This document shows positions 14,301-59,977 of a stretch of 64,000 nt of DNA, one piece after another. Under the pieces are notes generated by a model. That model was not told where the DNA came from and searched no databases. It saw only the letters and a list, made by a program, of their open reading frames with translations. The position numbers and the translations under genes are program-made. Position 1 is the first letter of the stretch. Each line of letters opens with the position of its first letter. This DNA is from Bacteroidota bacterium. GTDB lineage: Bacteria; Bacteroidota; Ignavibacteria; OLB7. The stretch is taken from the NCBI GenBank assembly GCA_018266795.1, contig JAFDZV010000001.1:62234-126233 (forward strand), written 5' to 3'.

Positions 14301-14332
14301 GAACTCCACACTCTAGGCGAGATGTGGAGTTC
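14301..14332 (+). terminator. Hairpin after the PUR gene
   Basis: A perfect 10-bp stem gaactccaca / tgtggagttc with a 12-nt loop, about 60 bp after the stop. There is no long T-run, so it may be a weak or factor-assisted terminator. Confidence 0.5.
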
Positions 14333-20618: not shown

Positions 20619-20707
20619 GGAAAGATGCAGGAGTGGTTTAACTGGAACGCCTGGAAAGCGTTTGTACGGGTCAAACCGTACCGAGGGTTCGAATCCCTCT
20701 CTTTCCG
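20619..20707 (+). tRNA. tRNA-Ser (anticodon GGA)
   Basis: Class II tRNA of 89 nt: acceptor ggaaaga / tctttcc, discriminator G, anticodon stem aacgc/gcgtt around loop CTGGAAA (anticodon GGA), a long variable arm tgtacgggtcaaaccgtacc and T-arm gagggttcgaatccctc. CCA is not encoded. Confidence 0.96.
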
Positions 20708-20711
20708 CACC

Positions 20712-20751
20712 GAAGCGTGGTAGTCGCTGATTGCCACGCTTCTTCGTTTTT
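20712..20751 (+). terminator. Intrinsic terminator of tRNA-Ser
   Basis: A perfect 9-bp stem gaagcgtgg / ccacgcttc with a 13-nt loop, followed by TTCGTTTTT. Confidence 0.9.
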
Positions 20752-20786
20752 GAACGTCACACGACCTGCTTCGGCAAACTCTGCGC

Positions 20787-22060: not shown

Positions 22061-22714
22061 ATGACAACCAGGAAGATCGCACTCAACGGTTTGCTGCTCG
22101 CGTTTCTGTGTGCTGTTGTGGCGGGGTGCGGCAGCTCGAAGCGAACCACTGTCAACGGATACTCCGATGCAATGCTCTCCGGCAAACGTCTGGCTGTTGT
22201 GCTTCCGCTGCCGGTCGATGTGGTGCTGACCGACCCGGCGGCGTACGCCGCGGTGCGCGGCACGGTCGCAGAATCGGCGCGCGATCTCATGCAGGACGAC
22301 TTCCGAAGCCAGCTCATCAGCGCACTTGCCTCGCGTCTGGATTCCAACCACGTGATGAGCTATCGCGACGAGACCGTTGGTGCGATGGTGCCGCTGAACG
22401 CTCGCAGCGACTTCAGCAGCGCTGCGCCGATTTCCTGGGATCCGATCAAGCGTGCCACGCAGGAGGGAAATCTGGACTACCTGCTCGTGATGCATTCGAT
22501 GACGATCTCCACCATCTCCGCTGCCACTACCCGCGGAGCGGAATCGATCTCGGGCGAGTACCTGCTTATCGATGCGCGGCGCGATACGGTGATGACCTCC
22601 GGACGCGTGGAGACGGGGCAGATCCCGCTCAGCGGTCCGGGCGATGCATACGGCGTACTGGCGCAGAAGCTCGCGGAGCACCTTCCGTTCATCGTGGGGA
22701 ACAAGGCGCACTGA
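22061..22714 (+). CDS. Hypothetical lipoprotein
   Basis: 217 residues. The start MTTRKIALNG gives a signal peptide with lipobox AVVAGC (Cys about residue 23), followed by a Ser/Lys linker. The mature part has alternating strands (LAVVLPLPVDVVL, YLLVMHSMTIST, EYLLIDARRDTVMTSGRV) reminiscent of the LpoB/CsgG-like fold of small envelope lipoproteins, but I cannot name a family. It lies 50 bp after the GlmU-like gene and before a strong terminator. Confidence 0.65.
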   Translation: MTTRKIALNGLLLAFLCAVVAGCGSSKRTTVNGYSDAMLSGKRLAVVLPLPVDVVLTDPAAYAAVRGTVAESARDLMQDDFRSQLISALASRLDSNHVMSYRDETVGAMVPLNARSDFSSAAPISWDPIKRATQEGNLDYLLVMHSMTISTISAATTRGAESISGEYLLIDARRDTVMTSGRVETGQIPLSGPGDAYGVLAQKLAEHLPFIVGNKAH

Positions 22715-22771
22715 GCGCGACGTCGGTCGTTCTACGACACGTCGGTAACAGCAACCGAACTCATTCGATGA

Positions 22772-22794
22772 CCCTGGCCTCGGCCGGGGTTTTT
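22772..22794 (+). terminator. Intrinsic terminator after the lipoprotein gene
   Basis: Stem ccctggcc / ggccgggg (8 bp with G-T), 2-nt apparent loop that would open further, then five Ts. Confidence 0.85.
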
Positions 22795-22831
22795 CGTTGT
22801 GTGGAAGCGATTCATCCGGCCATTCCGGCGG

Positions 22832-22862
22832 TTTGCAATGCATCGGTATTTCGATAGCTTTG
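22832..22862 (+). promoter_or_regulatory. Consensus Bacteroidota promoter of the E1 fusion gene
   Basis: TTTG at 22832-22835, exactly 19 nt, then TAGCTTTG at 22855-22862: a full match to the Bacteroidota primary-sigma consensus. The expected transcription start falls a few bases downstream, inside the palindrome listed next. This leaves a leader of about 115 nt. Confidence 0.85.
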
Positions 22863-22864
22863 TT

Positions 22865-22883
22865 ACCCTTTCATTGAAAGGGT
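22865..22883. promoter_or_regulatory. 19-bp perfect palindrome at the transcription start (probable operator)
   Basis: ACCCTTTCA-T-TGAAAGGGT: nine-base arms around a single central T, starting two bases after the -7 box. A regulator bound here would block initiation. If transcribed, it would be too tight to form a useful hairpin (1-nt spacer), so a protein operator is the better reading. The regulator is not identified. Confidence 0.7.
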
Positions 22884-22985
22884 GCGCCTATATTGTTCCC
22901 TCATCCCTGATTCAGTTCGCGTGCGGTCCTCTCGGGCCGGATAGATTCTCCCAAATCCAAGTAGCTCAGTCACTCATCGGAACCG

Positions 22986-25166
22986 ATGGCATCGAAGAAA
23001 CCCAAGGCCCCGGCAGCCACTCGCGTTGCCCCGACATCCTCGCCTGGCGCTCGTGCTGCAACGAGTGCAGCGATCGAGAAGACGATTCCAAAGCCGGCCG
23101 CCCCGAAGCAGGAGGCCAACGGCTCGGCGAACGGCTCTTCGACCCCCCTGCATCATGAGTCGCTCGGCCTTGCGCCGGAGGCGCTGCGCGATTCGCTGCG
23201 CATGATGATGCTCGCGCGTCGCACCGATGAGAAACACCTGATGCTCCTGAAGCAGAACAAGAGCTTCTTCCACATCGGCGTTTCGGGTCATGAGGCGATC
23301 CAGATCGGCATCGCGTATTCCCTCGAGACCGAGCGGGACTGGGCATGGACGTATTACCGCGACCTTGCGATGGCCTACATGTTCGGCCATACGCCGGGCG
23401 ATCACTTTCTTGGAGCCTTCGGCAAGGCGGATGACCCTGCCAGCGGCGGTCGCCAGATGCCCTGCCATCATGGCAATCGCCGCCTTCATCTTCCAACGCA
23501 GTCATCCCCCACCGGAACGCAGTTCCTGAACGCCGTGGGATGCGCGCTGGCCTCGAAGATGGATGGAACGGACGAGGTGACCTATGTGGCGTCTGGTGAG
23601 GGAACGTGCAGCCAGGGAGAGTTCTACGAGGCCGTGAACTGGGCCGCTCGCGAGAAGCTTCCGGTTGTCTTCTGCATTCAGGACAACGGATACGCGATCT
23701 CGGTGCCCGCTTCCCAGCAGGCGGCGGGAGGGCGCGTCGGTGACCTGTTCCGGAACCATCCGAACCTGGATGTTGTCCATGTGGACGGCACCGATCTGCT
23801 TGCAAGCTATCTGGTGGGGAAGCGCGCGGTGGAGCGCGCACGCCGCGGCGATGGGCCCACGCTGATCCACGCCAGCGTGATCCGCATTCTTGCCCACTCC
23901 AGCTCTGATGATCAGAAGAAGTATCGTCCGGCCGATGAACTGGAGCAGGATCTGAAGCGCGATCCGATTGCCCGGCTCACTTCGTACCTGGTCGAGCATG
24001 GCCTGATGACGGACGAGGCGATCGAGGAAATGCGCAAGGGTGTCTATCGCGAGATAGACGAGGCTGCGGACTGGGCGCTGACACAGGCAGATCCCGATCC
24101 TGCAACCAGCACGCTCTATAACTTTTCGCCGAAGGGATTCGGCGGCATGAACTACGAGGCCACCGCTCCCTCCGGAGAGAATGTGGTGTTGATCGATGCG
24201 ATCAACCACGCTCTGCATGAGGAGATGGAGCACAACCCGAAGATGGTGATCTTCGGCGAGGACGTTGCCGACAACAAGGGAGGAGTGTTCGGAGCAACGC
24301 GAGGGCTGTCCAACAAGTTCGGCAATGTGCGCGTGTTCAACTCTCCGCTTGCCGAGGCGTCCATCGTGGGCGTTGCGCTTGGCCTTGCAACGCGCGGCTA
24401 CAAGCCGTGTGTGGAGATTCAGTTCGGTGACTACATCTGGCCGGCCTTCATGCAGTTGCGCAATGAAGTGGCAACGCTTCGCTATCGTTCCAACAACGGC
24501 TTCAGCTGCCCCATGGTGGTGCGCGTTGCCGTTGGCGGCTACATCCACGGTGGGCTCTATCACTCGCAGAACATCGAGGGATTCTTCTCCCATGTTCCCG
24601 GTCTGCTGATCGCCTATCCCTCCACGGCTGCCGATGCCAAGGGGTTGCTGAAGAGCGCATGCCGTCTGGACGATCCGGTGATCTTCTGCGAACACAAGGG
24701 GATCATTCGCATGCCGTTCTCGGCTGGGCCCGAGCCCGATGCGGATTACCTGGTGGAGTTCGGCAAGGGGAAGATTGTGCGTGAGGGGAACGACCTTACC
24801 GTGGTGACCTGGGGAGCGATGGTGAAGGAATCGTTCAATGCAGCCAAGAAGATCGAGGCCGAGAGCGGCAGGACGGTGGAGGTGATCGACCTTCGTACGA
24901 TCGTCCCGTGGGATCGCCAGATGGTGATCGACTCGGTTCGCAAGACCAGCCGCGTTGCAGTGATCCACGAGGATACGATCTCAATGGGCTTCGGCGCAGA
25001 GATCGCGGCAACGATCGCAAAGGATGCGTTCACATGGCTCGATGCCCCTGTTGAGCGTGTTGCGGCGAAGGACTCGCATATTCCGTATCATCCGAACCTG
25101 GAGCTGGACGTGCTCCCCACCGAGCGGACTGTGTACGAGGGGATGATGCGCGTGCTCCAGTTCTGA
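22986..25166 (+). CDS. Fused E1 alpha/beta 2-oxoacid dehydrogenase (pyruvate or branched-chain type)
   Basis: A 726-residue thiamine-diphosphate enzyme that decarboxylates a 2-oxoacid and passes the acyl group to the lipoyl E2. Residues 1-55 are an Ala/Pro/Lys-rich, probably disordered extension. The alpha part (about 60-385) has FHIGVSGHEAIQIGIA, TYYRDLAMAYMFG, and the ThDP motif GEGTCSQGEFYEAVNWA through QDNGYAIS. The beta part (about 400-726) starts VLIDAINHALHEEMEHNP and shows FGEDVADNKGGVF, PLAEASIVGVALGLA and VIDLRTIVPWDRQMV. The fused form is common in Bacteroidota and tends to be branched-chain-like, but pyruvate cannot be excluded. No E2 or E3 gene is adjacent. Confidence 0.92.
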   Translation: MASKKPKAPAATRVAPTSSPGARAATSAAIEKTIPKPAAPKQEANGSANGSSTPLHHESLGLAPEALRDSLRMMMLARRTDEKHLMLLKQNKSFFHIGVSGHEAIQIGIAYSLETERDWAWTYYRDLAMAYMFGHTPGDHFLGAFGKADDPASGGRQMPCHHGNRRLHLPTQSSPTGTQFLNAVGCALASKMDGTDEVTYVASGEGTCSQGEFYEAVNWAAREKLPVVFCIQDNGYAISVPASQQAAGGRVGDLFRNHPNLDVVHVDGTDLLASYLVGKRAVERARRGDGPTLIHASVIRILAHSSSDDQKKYRPADELEQDLKRDPIARLTSYLVEHGLMTDEAIEEMRKGVYREIDEAADWALTQADPDPATSTLYNFSPKGFGGMNYEATAPSGENVVLIDAINHALHEEMEHNPKMVIFGEDVADNKGGVFGATRGLSNKFGNVRVFNSPLAEASIVGVALGLATRGYKPCVEIQFGDYIWPAFMQLRNEVATLRYRSNNGFSCPMVVRVAVGGYIHGGLYHSQNIEGFFSHVPGLLIAYPSTAADAKGLLKSACRLDDPVIFCEHKGIIRMPFSAGPEPDADYLVEFGKGKIVREGNDLTVVTWGAMVKESFNAAKKIEAESGRTVEVIDLRTIVPWDRQMVIDSVRKTSRVAVIHEDTISMGFGAEIAATIAKDAFTWLDAPVERVAAKDSHIPYHPNLELDVLPTERTVYEGMMRVLQF

Positions 25167-42557: not shown

Positions 42558-42586
42558 ACGATGTCAACTTAGGTTTGTTTCGCTTG

Positions 42587-43072
42587 ATGGCAAAAAAGAA
42601 TCGCACGCGCGAACAACTGGTGCTCGGGCTTCAGGAGATGGGGCGGATGCTGAGCACTGCAACGGTACTCTATCACCAGGTGATCGCGGAGCGTCTGGGG
42701 CTGAGCGCATCCGATCACAAGTATGCCGACGTTCTTCTGCGAACGGGTCCCGTTACCGCCGGCGAGTTCGCCGATCTCACCGGCCTCACCACCGGTGCGA
42801 TTACCGGCGTCGTGGACCGCCTGGAGCAGATCGGCCTTGTGCGTCGCGTGAAGGATCCGAACGACCGGAGACGCGTGATCATCGAGATTGTGCATAACCC
42901 TGCGATCGAGCGAACGTTCTCGGATCTTTTCGCCTCGCTCGTCGAGGCAACCGAACGGCTTGCCCGCCACTACACGCTCAGCCAGTTGGAACTGATTTAC
43001 GATTACATGCTGCGTTGCAAGACCATGATGGAAGAGGAGCAGAGGAAGCTTCGCAGCCGCCAGCCGTCCTGA
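42587..43072 (+). CDS. MarR-family transcriptional regulator
   Basis: 161 residues from the ATG MAKKNRTREQ; a TTG four codons upstream is the alternative. The winged-helix core is clear: GPVTAGEFADLTGLTTGAITGVVDRLEQIGLV, then RVKDPNDRRRVIIEI as the wing, with dimerisation helices at both ends. It probably represses itself and the divergent ABC exporter operon through the two palindromes immediately upstream, with a small-molecule inducer exported by the pump; this is the usual MarR circuit and is inferred from position. Confidence 0.92.
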   Translation: MAKKNRTREQLVLGLQEMGRMLSTATVLYHQVIAERLGLSASDHKYADVLLRTGPVTAGEFADLTGLTTGAITGVVDRLEQIGLVRRVKDPNDRRRVIIEIVHNPAIERTFSDLFASLVEATERLARHYTLSQLELIYDYMLRCKTMMEEEQRKLRSRQPS

Positions 43073-48774: not shown

Positions 48775-49977
48775 CTACTGTTTGATGATCTTCTGGAATG
48801 TAGAGCCTGCATCCGCATCGATTCGGAGCAGATACATGCCCGCCGGAACAGGGGAGAGATCCAGCGTATGCCCCTGTTCGCCGGCGGTGATTTCCGTTGT
48901 GATCATCTCGCGGCCCAGCTCATCGATCAGCGTCGCGCGCGCCATCCCATGCGTGCGCGGCGCCCTGATTGCGAGTGCGGCCCCGGCCGGATTCGGCGCC
49001 GCGCTCCAATCGCCGTTCCGGATCGAAGCTTCCCGGATGCCGGCGGGCGAACCGTTCAGCTCCCACCAGTCGTTGTAGAAATTGCTTCCAAGGTCCCAAC
49101 CCGACCCGACGTACGCCCTTCCGTTCGCAACGCAGGCCGTTGCCCACGCGCGGCTCTTTGTTGCCGGCAGCCCGGAGGCCGGGCTCCACGTATCGGTTGC
49201 CGGATCGTAGCTGTAGAAGTCGGAGAAGGAGGTCGTGTACGCTGTCTGCCCAAGGCCGACGTACCCTTTGCCGTTGAGTGCGAAGGCAACCGCACACTGG
49301 CGCGCCGCACCCGGGAACTCAGAGAGGTAGTCCCAGGAATCCTTGGAGGCATCGTAGCGATAGAGGTCCGTGGTCTCCAGATTTCCGATGCTTCCGGTTG
49401 TCACGTATGCGTACGGGCCAATCACGAACGATGCCTGGAAGATCGCCGGCCCCGATTGCAGGTCGTGCTTCGTAGCCCACGTGTCGGTTGCGGGATCGTA
49501 TTCGTAGAAATCGGCCAGGAGCACCTTGTTGTCGCTTCCGCCTCCCACGTACGCCTTGCCGTTCACCACGAAGCAGGTAACGCCGTCGCGTGCGATACCC
49601 GGGAAGTCCGCCTTACGCGCCCAGGTGTTGGCAGCCGGGTCGTATTCCCACAGATCCTTCTTCAGGTTCGTATTGCCGTCGTATCCAAGGCAGACGTAGC
49701 CCTTGGCTCCGATGCTGAAGCCCGCGCCAAATGCGCGCTCGTTGCTGACGCCCGGTATGTTCGCCAGTCGCGTCCACGTGCCGGACTCCACGTCATAGCC
49801 GTAGAAGTCCTTGCTGCCCGCACCTGCGCCTGTGTAGACCCTGGAGCCGATGGCGAAGGAGATCGCTGCATCCCGTGCTCCTCCGGGCAGGTTGGTCCGT
49901 TGCGACCACGTCTGTGCGCTGGCTGCCGGACCGGTGAGGAGGAGCGCGATGGCAATGGTGTATGCAAGCTGTCTCAT
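48775..49977 (-). CDS. Kelch-repeat secreted protein with T9SS sorting domain
   Basis: About 400 residues; start taken at MRQLAYTIAIAL, signal peptide ending PAASAQ. Six kelch-type blades with the motif YDPATDTW and a preceding G-x-Y-V: YVCLGYDGN, AYVGGGSDNKVLLADFYEYD, KGYVGLGQTAYTTSFSDFYSYD, AYVGSGWDLG. The C-terminal 80 residues (WSAAPNPAGAALAIRAP, ATLIDELGREMITTEI, LSPVPAGMYLLRIDADAGST) form a type A T9SS sorting domain. A one-propeller surface or secreted protein; ligand unknown. It sits between two paralogous cytosolic genes. Confidence 0.85.
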   Translation of the reverse strand: MRQLAYTIAIALLLTGPAASAQTWSQRTNLPGGARDAAISFAIGSRVYTGAGAGSKDFYGYDVESGTWTRLANIPGVSNERAFGAGFSIGAKGYVCLGYDGNTNLKKDLWEYDPAANTWARKADFPGIARDGVTCFVVNGKAYVGGGSDNKVLLADFYEYDPATDTWATKHDLQSGPAIFQASFVIGPYAYVTTGSIGNLETTDLYRYDASKDSWDYLSEFPGAARQCAVAFALNGKGYVGLGQTAYTTSFSDFYSYDPATDTWSPASGLPATKSRAWATACVANGRAYVGSGWDLGSNFYNDWWELNGSPAGIREASIRNGDWSAAPNPAGAALAIRAPRTHGMARATLIDELGREMITTEITAGEQGHTLDLSPVPAGMYLLRIDADAGSTFQKIIKQ

Positions 49978-50201
49978 GATGCATTTCACACAGTTAGTGA
50001 GTTGATACGTGCGTGCACGGCCGTGCCGTTTCCGGCCGGCGACGCATAACCCGGTCGCATCCGGATTGTTAGCCGCCTGCCTGTCCGGTTATTGCTATTT
50101 GAGGAGATCTCGGGTGGATGGTGCGAAGTTGGCAACAACAGAGAAACGGAGCACGGTACGAGACCGGCATCGTGCCGGTGATGCGATGCAGTTGGCGCGC
50201 C

Positions 50202-56022: not shown

Positions 56023-57018
56023 CTACTTCGTCAGGATCAGTTTCCCGCCATTGAAGGTTCGACCTCCCTGCGTAAGTGCCACATAGTACACTCCTGCCGG
56101 AAGCGCGCCGCATTCGATACGATCGCCGGTGGCCACGTTCTCCATGCGGATCACTTCGTGCCCGAGCATGTCGTGAACCGAGAGCGCGGGCCGCGTTCCG
56201 TTCAGGGCTTCCGGAAGTTCCACCACGGTGCGGTCCGTACATGGATTCGGATGAAAGGCAACAGTCTCCGGGCTCTTATCGGCCGGCTCCACCGATGCGG
56301 GAGCCTGATAGGCGAAGTGATACACCGTTCCGCTGCCGGGCGTGCCGGACATCGGATAATAAGCCTGCGTCAACTCCAGACTCGGCCGTGTGGGATTGCC
56401 GATCAAGTGCACGGTAGCATCAACGACGCTGAAGTCATAGTTGGATAGGAATCCGCCGATGGCCGGTCCGTTGTTGTTGTAGTAGGCGGCGGTGCCTGAG
56501 ACGTGATTGGGGCCAACATGCACCTCGTAGCTGTTGTCCTTCCCGTTGAGCCAGATCTGAAGGTTCACGTAGTCGCCGGAGGAATTTCCGGTCATTCCCA
56601 TGTTCTTCCACTGCACCTTGAGCACCCGTTCTCCCTCCGGTCCCTGAAGCTGATAGGAGATGGAGGAGGTGCTGTCGCGCCAGGCGAGTTTCGAGATGAA
56701 CCCGTCGAAAATGCACAACCGTTGGATGGACTGGATATTGACGCCGATAAACCCGCCAACGAAGAAGAAGGCGGAGGGTGGGGTCTGGTCGAAGTCCAGA
56801 TGCTGCCCGAACGCGTCCATGGCGAACGGTATCGTGAGCCCGTAGCCGGACATTTCACTCGCCATCTGGTCCGGCGAATTGACGATCACCGTTGGATTGT
56901 CCAGTTCCGCATAGGCGGCGCTCCTGGTGGTTACCGTATAGAACCTGCTCTGCGAGAAGGCGCGGCTGCCGCCACACAGTAACAAAACAATTGGTAGGGC
57001 ATAGATTAGCCGTTTCAT
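56023..57018 (-). CDS. Secreted protein with T9SS sorting domain
   Basis: 331 residues from MKRLIYALPIVLLLCGGSRA, with CCAGGA just upstream. Mature N-terminus near QSRFYTV. The body is beta-rich with FFFVGGFIGVNIQSIQRL, YQLQGPEGERVLKVQWKN and VNLQIWLNGKDNSYEVHVG, suggesting a lectin or jelly-roll fold. The C-terminal 80 residues are a T9SS type A domain: VAFHPNPCTDRTVVELPE, LSVHDMLGHEVIRME, LPAGVYYVALTQGG and KLILTK. Ligand unknown. Confidence 0.85.
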   Translation of the reverse strand: MKRLIYALPIVLLLCGGSRAFSQSRFYTVTTRSAAYAELDNPTVIVNSPDQMASEMSGYGLTIPFAMDAFGQHLDFDQTPPSAFFFVGGFIGVNIQSIQRLCIFDGFISKLAWRDSTSSISYQLQGPEGERVLKVQWKNMGMTGNSSGDYVNLQIWLNGKDNSYEVHVGPNHVSGTAAYYNNNGPAIGGFLSNYDFSVVDATVHLIGNPTRPSLELTQAYYPMSGTPGSGTVYHFAYQAPASVEPADKSPETVAFHPNPCTDRTVVELPEALNGTRPALSVHDMLGHEVIRMENVATGDRIECGALPAGVYYVALTQGGRTFNGGKLILTK

Positions 57019-57242
57019 GTTCCTGGATGATTGAGTTTGAGAGATCGTTGACACCAAGCCCAACCGCTGCCGGCAGGAGACCGTCTGCGGAAAGACGTAT
57101 CGGCGCGCCTCACGGAAGGACATCGGGCGGCCACGTGATGCAGCCGAGGCCAATTTGCATTGGCCTCGAGACGGGGATCAATCCGATCGCACTGCCGATA
57201 TGATGTTTCTACGGCATCCGTCCGGCATAATCCAGCATATCC

Positions 57243-58841: not shown

Positions 58842-59977
58842 TCGGAGGCTGCATCGCCTGCCGCTCCGTTCGGAGACCCGTTTCGCACGGTATTTCAGAG
58901 CTCTACAGCGGTGCGTGTTTCTCGGTTAAATAACGTTCCGAAATTTCCGGAATATGTCGGCCTGCCCGGCGTATTCCCGGCGATTGCACGCTCGCAGGGC
59001 GGCACCGGCTCCGCGCCGCCGTCGCAACGCCAGGGAGGCGGATGCGTCGGCCCGAAAAATATTAGCCGATGTGTGCCGCGGAACACGCATTCACCGGGCG
59101 GTGTGCACCCGGATGCCGAAATGATCGCTTTACCGCGCGCGTTTTTCGGAAATGTGAACTCCGAACATTTTGTTATCGATATACACCATTCCGCCATTCA
59201 TCCGCACTTGCATTCGCGCGGGCGATGTCGTATTATTGTAAACCATTTCAACGCCACACACGGCATAAACCGGAGATAACGACCCCCTCAACCATGAGCG
59301 ATTCGATGTCAATACTGTTGTCATCGTGTGCGTACTCTCTCCCTTTCTACGCGCGATAGCATGTGGCACGGCAGCGAAACCCGAACCGGGTCTGGAGCTC
59401 TCCGTGTAACCACACCACACTCGTTCAACGAACAATATCGACCCCTGGCAGACTGTTGAACAACGTCATCTGCATCGTTGGCCTTTGCGTCCGCGTATTG
59501 CGTCGTCCGAAGGGACGCCTCGTTCGCGGCCGTCCGGCGGCTCCGCATCTGACTGTTGCCGAACAGTCCGTGGCCGCGCAGTAATTCGACGGGCGGTTGG
59601 CCGGCTCCGAATATCGAAATCGGGCCCGGTGCAATGTGCTGCCGTAAAATACCGCGGCGTGTATCCGGAAATCCGTATCCCCGGCGGGCCGCGCCGTAGC
59701 CGGACATCTCGTTCGGAGCGGAGCGAGCCTGAAGCCGGGGCATCGTCCGGCTTTTGCGGCATGTCGTCGTGATATGCATGAATCCGGCGTCGCCGCGCGT
59801 TTGCCGAATTTCGACGGATGAGCTGACGTAATCATCGCCACAATCTTCAACAACGATGTGCCGGCTGCTGCCGGCGTAAAATCAATCATCGGTTCCCATG
59901 AATACCGGCAGTGCCGCTGCACGTGGTGCTGAACGTTGGGAACCTCAACTCAATTATTTCGATAAGGAGTCGCAACC
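58842..59977. other. 1.1-kb stretch without a recognisable gene
   Basis: The longest gene-free stretch in the window. Open frames are short, with no ribosome site or family match. Composition shifts: 59140-59290 is visibly AT-richer than its surroundings (e.g. ATTTTGTTATCGATATACACC, TATTATTGTAAACC). Near-palindromic bits such as TTCCGAAATTTCCGGAA occur at about 58934. A ribosome site AAGGAG just before 59978 belongs to the next gene. It may be a long 5' leader, a decayed gene or an acquired segment. Confidence 0.6.

Follow-up and report, generated by a model that had tools for sequence, protein, structure and literature searches.

Is the perfect palindrome that lies ahead of a 2-oxoacid dehydrogenase E1 gene a repressor operator, and does it lie at a functional promoter? 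The locus is part of a 64-kb stretch of DNA (the window, 64,000 nucleotides). The gene encodes a fused alpha-beta E1 component. Its substrate is not fixed by the profiles, as the NCBIfam matches all fall under their curated cut-offs. The orthologue in the same-genus genome is 80% identical and opens with the identical residues MASKK. The gene located 5' of E1 ends at 22714 and is followed by an intrinsic terminator that splits it from the E1 transcription unit; E1 therefore requires a promoter of its own.

The features of the E1 spacer are listed in Table 1. The promoter-like elements and the palindrome follow one another in the order TTTG, 19 bases, TAGCTTTG, TT and ACCCTTTCATTGAAAGGGT. The last of these is a perfect dyad (9+1+9), with 9/9 arm bases complementary about a single central base, and 102 bases separate its end from the E1 start codon. 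A sequence-only reading had described a perfect 19-bp palindrome starting two bases after the -7 box of a TTTG-N19-box promoter. On re-reading, the letters and coordinates of this palindrome proved exact, and the promoter elements and their placement were upheld.

Table 1. Features at the E1 locus (window positions)
Feature	Position	Strand	Evidence
Intrinsic terminator of upstream gene, hairpin then T run	22770..22791	+	9 pairs, 6 GC; 1 found vs 0.4 in shuffles; -17.8 kcal/mol, z -3.45
-33-type element TTTG	22832..22835	+	TTTG-N17-21-TANNTTTG enriched genome-wide
-7 box TAGCTTTG (consensus TAnnTTTG), 19 bases after TTTG	22855..22862	+	motif enriched upstream of genes
Candidate operator, the perfect dyad ACCCTTTCA-T-TGAAAGGGT; would span -2 to +17; able to pair as an 8-9-bp hairpin in RNA	22865..22883	.	
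TATATTGT, fits TAnnTTGY (second flavobacterial box); weak candidate for a further promoter	22889..22896	+	motif from PMC9723704
Fused alpha-beta E1 component of 2-oxoacid dehydrogenase, 726 aa	22986..25166	+	PF00676, PF02779, PF02780

The primary sigma factor of the Bacteroidota (sigma-ABfr type) has a consensus made up of a -7 box, TAnnTTTG, and a TTTG near -33 (PMC7366714; PMC9723704), and the TAnnTTTG box of mapped Flavobacterium psychrophilum start sites occupies positions -12 to -5 (PMC9723704). The E1 site resembles promoters of this type in having a TAnnTTTG box and a TTTG with a 19-base spacer. It departs from them in that the box at the same place in the same-genus orthologue is TAGTTTG, one base shorter. 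TAnnTTTG is approximately twofold enriched in the 1154 upstream regions taken from 2.44 Mb of the genome, with 64 forward occurrences versus 33 for the reverse complement and 36 for the reversed motif. A TTG located 19-20 bases ahead of this box was found 15 times forward, 9 times as the reverse complement and 0 times reversed in the same regions; the reverse complement control takes in divergent spacers and may therefore contain opposite-strand promoters. Genome-wide, TTTG-N17-21-TANNTTTG occurs 33 times (22 forward, 11 reverse) versus 10 times (4 and 6, respectively) for the pattern read backward. A scan for sigma-70 type promoters gave no match at the dyad site. The promoter reading of TTTG-N19-TAnnTTTG is reasonable and the dyad probably sits at a real promoter. 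Transferred to E1, the box position known from F. psychrophilum (-12 to -5; PMC9723704) predicts a transcription start at approximately 22867, which would put the dyad across it, a position common for repressor operators. What the E1 site mainly illustrates is that promoter signals of the Bacteroidota type can be recognised in a genome of high GC content.

The leading reading of the dyad, which is put forward tentatively and at rather less than even confidence, is that it is a candidate operator, specific to this lineage and present as a single site, through which a dimeric repressor would act at the start of transcription. A dimeric helix-turn-helix repressor would dock on the dyad over the predicted E1 start, and the bound dimer would block RNA polymerase. 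Directly observed are a dyad, promoter-like elements with their spacing, an upstream terminator and the gene identity; the start site is placed by flavobacterial analogy, and a protein that would bind, repress and answer to a signal is inferred. The dyad is a two-fold symmetric site that overlaps the promoter, and its overlap with the start is predicted. Its symmetry is unbroken up to the central base, something that a protein with two-fold symmetry could read but that is of no use to an RNA hairpin. The consensus -7 box (a motif enriched upstream of genes) two bases ahead of the dyad and the excess of dyads in start-bearing spacers described below also count for an operator. Counted against it are the single occurrence of the site, its absence from the same-genus genome and from 30/30 orthologue regions, the lack of a nearby regulator and the 17/18 comparable promoters that carry no such dyad.

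Two other identities for the dyad were considered and rejected. An intrinsic terminator is contradicted by the absence of a T run from both flanks, and the sole terminator found in 22600-23100 is the one at 22770-22791. As a dispersed palindromic repeat (REP/MITE type) it is contradicted by the spacer, which matches only itself in 2.44 Mb, and by the 19-mer, which is unique genome-wide within 3 mismatches. A repeat of approximately 130-150 bp does occur elsewhere in the window (59449-59570), with the near-inverted ends GACTGTTGAACAAC ... TTGTTGAACAGTC and nine blastn matches, itself included, in 2.44 Mb. In the same-genus genome a copy directly follows tRNA-Gly, and none lies behind tRNA-Gly in the window's own genome. 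This repeat is REP- or MITE-like.

How often such a dyad would arise by chance was estimated with a crude gene caller of our own (ORFs of at least 80 aa ranked by length and GC3) and first-order Markov sequence, using 2.44 of the 5.97 Mb. At the window's composition, 0.98 dyads with an arm of at least 9 and a loop of at most 1 are expected in every 64 kb; of 40 simulated 64-kb windows, 62% held at least one. The start-bearing (tandem and divergent) spacers of the 2.44 Mb contain 14 dyads (arm at least 9, loop 0-1), where 10 simulations predict 2.1. Dyads are also in excess in convergent spacers (5 versus 0.5 expected in 2.44 Mb), which are without a promoter-distal gene start, and part of the dyad excess is therefore terminator-like. 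For start-bearing dyads with a GC content below 0.5, the class to which the E1 dyad belongs, the count is 2 versus 0.6 expected in 2.44 Mb; a first, smaller sample (1.26 Mb) had contained 10 dyads versus 1.9, and 3 versus 0.1 with GC below 0.5. TTG-N18-21-TAnnTTTG promoters upstream of genes number 18 in 2.44 Mb (four with the downstream region incomplete). An arm of at least 7 near the predicted start is present in E1 alone (1/18), the other 17 having arms of at most 6. As 1.45% of 2000 randomly drawn 55-base upstream windows have an arm of at least 9 with a loop of at most 6, approximately 0.26 such coincidences are expected among 18 promoters. The coincidence of the dyad with the promoter is no more than marginal. 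The dyad class in start-bearing spacers is real, and it is only moderately likely that its E1 member is non-random. A perfect AT-leaning palindrome of 24 bp, GTGAAAATCGAATTCGATTTTCAC, was seen in the same genome at G000:C10:91364-91387, 162 bases 5' of a called gene start, and is an operator candidate less easily put down to chance than the E1 dyad.

These figures bear directly on the possibility that the promoter is real and the palindrome functionless, having been noticed in 64 kb since it is easy to see. A dyad of such size is expected about once in a stretch of this length, the AT-leaning members in start-bearing spacers number only 2 versus 0.6 expected, a quarter of a promoter coincidence is expected anyway, and the dyad shows neither conservation nor a second site. 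The general excess in start-bearing spacers points the other way, as do the perfection of the dyad and the exactness with which it adjoins the -7 box, and a chance palindrome is considered a substantial possibility but a doubtful one. The same letters could instead act in the RNA, with transcription starting at the first bases of the dyad and a 5'-terminal hairpin protecting the mRNA from decay or sequestering the leader. 5' hairpins can stabilise bacterial mRNA. The dyad RNA folds at -10.9 kcal/mol (z -3.5), with 0/200 shuffles as good, and the start predicted from the flavobacterial box position (PMC9723704) lies within 2 bases of the dyad edge. Set against this, the symmetry spans the loop, which is superfluous for an RNA, the leader as a whole is ordinary (z -1.24, with 27/200 shuffles folding equally well), the same-genus orthologue has no such hairpin, and Rfam at the gathering threshold gives two tRNAs only in the window. 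A transcript beginning at 22868 is predicted to lose the hairpin. An RNA role is unlikely on this evidence. Least probable of all is that the dyad belongs to a second promoter, whose box would be TATATTGT; the dyad would then lie just 5' of this box and could bind an activator or a repressor there. This box fits TAnnTTGY, the second box reported for F. psychrophilum (PMC9723704), but TTG-N18-21-TAnnTTG is unenriched upstream of genes (4 forward, 4 reverse complement, 6 reversed) and a -33 element was not seen at the usual distance from TATATTGT.

An operator for a pathway regulator might be expected to recur, and the sequence-only reading had invoked an unidentified regulator of 2-oxoacid oxidation. 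A second copy of the 19-mer with at most 3 mismatches is absent from the whole 5.97-Mb genome. Its 15-base core has 0 further sites at 1 mismatch and 6 at 2 mismatches, each within an open frame of at least 224 codons; at 3 mismatches there are 119 sites versus 84 for the backward control. The gapped half-site CCTTTCN{1,5}GAAAGG has one other place (C23:2999-3012), in a stretch that lacks a long ORF and some 270 bases 5' of a repetitive ORF rich in alanine and serine; as this is not a catabolic gene, the place was rejected as a second operator. No comparable dyad was found upstream of two E1 paralogues (C66, C44) or an E2 gene (C4, one of two PF00198 matches), a comparison that left out the C26 E1 paralogue, a partial E1-like match on C5 and the C18 E2-type match. 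The window contains 58 delimited ORFs (at least 80 aa). Pfam profiles run on 48 of them recognised a single DNA-binding regulator, a MarR-type gene (42575-43072) that adjoins a DinB-type gene at 20 kb from the dyad; none was recognised near E1. Type IX secretion sorting domains (PF18962) are present at the C termini of two proteins in the window (48775-49989 and 56023-57153), the second scoring just under the curated cut-off. The proposed pathway regulator is not supported, given the lack of a second site within 3 mismatches and of a dyad at the paralogues examined. The literature searched on the motif letters gave no published operator with the letters of the dyad.

Positions 1-31.6 kb of the window are syntenic with contig C3 of G001, the only same-genus genome found. 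The E1 spacer of the G001 orthologue retains TTTTCGGTAGTTTG at a near-equal distance from the gene (TAG 119 bases before the ATG versus 131 here), and the dyad is absent from it. Spacers were aligned for 9 of 14 genes (five were dropped as their spacers are short, and 3/9 are anchored only roughly), with identities of 0.41-0.65 and 0.45 for the E1 spacer. A clear hairpin is kept in 2/9 of these, around 14301-14332 and directly behind tRNA-Ser. Conservation is a weak test here, since same-genus promoter spacers are mostly diverged; the loss of the dyad at the G001 E1 gene nevertheless counts for something, because these two spacers indicate that a structured element can survive. The spacer behind a DUF3276 gene holds the first of the two, a perfect hairpin (GAACTCCACA ... 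TGTGGAGTTC). Its G001 counterpart has the same stem, an altered loop and a T run after it, and the hairpin is therefore probably a terminator. The second is a terminator-like hairpin (20710-20760) behind tRNA-Ser (20619-20708) that is kept in G001 with its inner stem bases altered.

The wider orthologue set consisted of 29 of 37 close orthologues (52-81% identity, the last partial; own gene apart) plus 1 further locus. Four loci were added, of which three were counted as repeats because their contigs have the same lengths as those of loci already in the set (L032 = L003, L033 = L023, L034 = L026). Each upstream region comprised 260 bases (223 for L016), counted from the farthest in-frame ATG, so that an operator farther off would be missed. 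A dyad with an arm of at least 9 and a loop of at most 4 was found in 0/30 distinct upstream regions by a scan that recovered the E1 locus itself; other dyads with arms of 7-8 occur in 5/30 (L005, L015, L018, L023 and L024). At up to 2 mismatches, the dyad pattern is present in 5/61 related genomes (own included) versus 3 for the backward control. At up to 1 mismatch it is present in 2/245 genomes of the class, own included, and the other match falls within a 299-aa open frame. No match in a promoter setting was found in either set of relatives (61 and 245 genomes), the non-own matches being in open frames and on a par with the backward control. The sequence-only reading held that a dyad not conserved upstream of orthologues would refute its interpretation. 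To the letter this is what was found, in G001 and in the 30 regions, although the divergence of the spacers takes much of the force from it. Neither conservation nor a set of further sites defines an operator; both serve as supporting evidence.

If the operator is genuine, it appears to be both gene-specific and lineage-specific, because there is no close second site and none in the same-genus orthologue. A more elaborate proposal is that a gene-specific regulator, gained or evolved in one uncultured Chlorobiota-type lineage, gates 2-oxoacid oxidation through a single operator that doubles as a 5' hairpin. This proposal is speculative and quite improbable; if true, one element would be read in both DNA and RNA. 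A real operator would in any case offer an experimentally easy handle on the control of 2-oxoacid oxidation in an uncultured Chlorobiota-type bacterium, a subject on which one narrow literature search returned no papers. At present the E1 dyad stands as one candidate operator at one gene and is a modest lead.

Dimeric helix-turn-helix repressors of the TetR, GntR, MarR and LacI types have operators at start sites. The E1 dyad is like these operators in being a palindrome of approximately 15-20 bp over the predicted start, but it differs from them in that neither a cognate regulator nor a second site was found. The PdhR operator is a repressor site at the pdh promoter of E. coli. Although its letters are unlike those of the PdhR box and it is not a member of that group, the E1 dyad resembles the PdhR operator in being a candidate site for a repressor at an E1 promoter.
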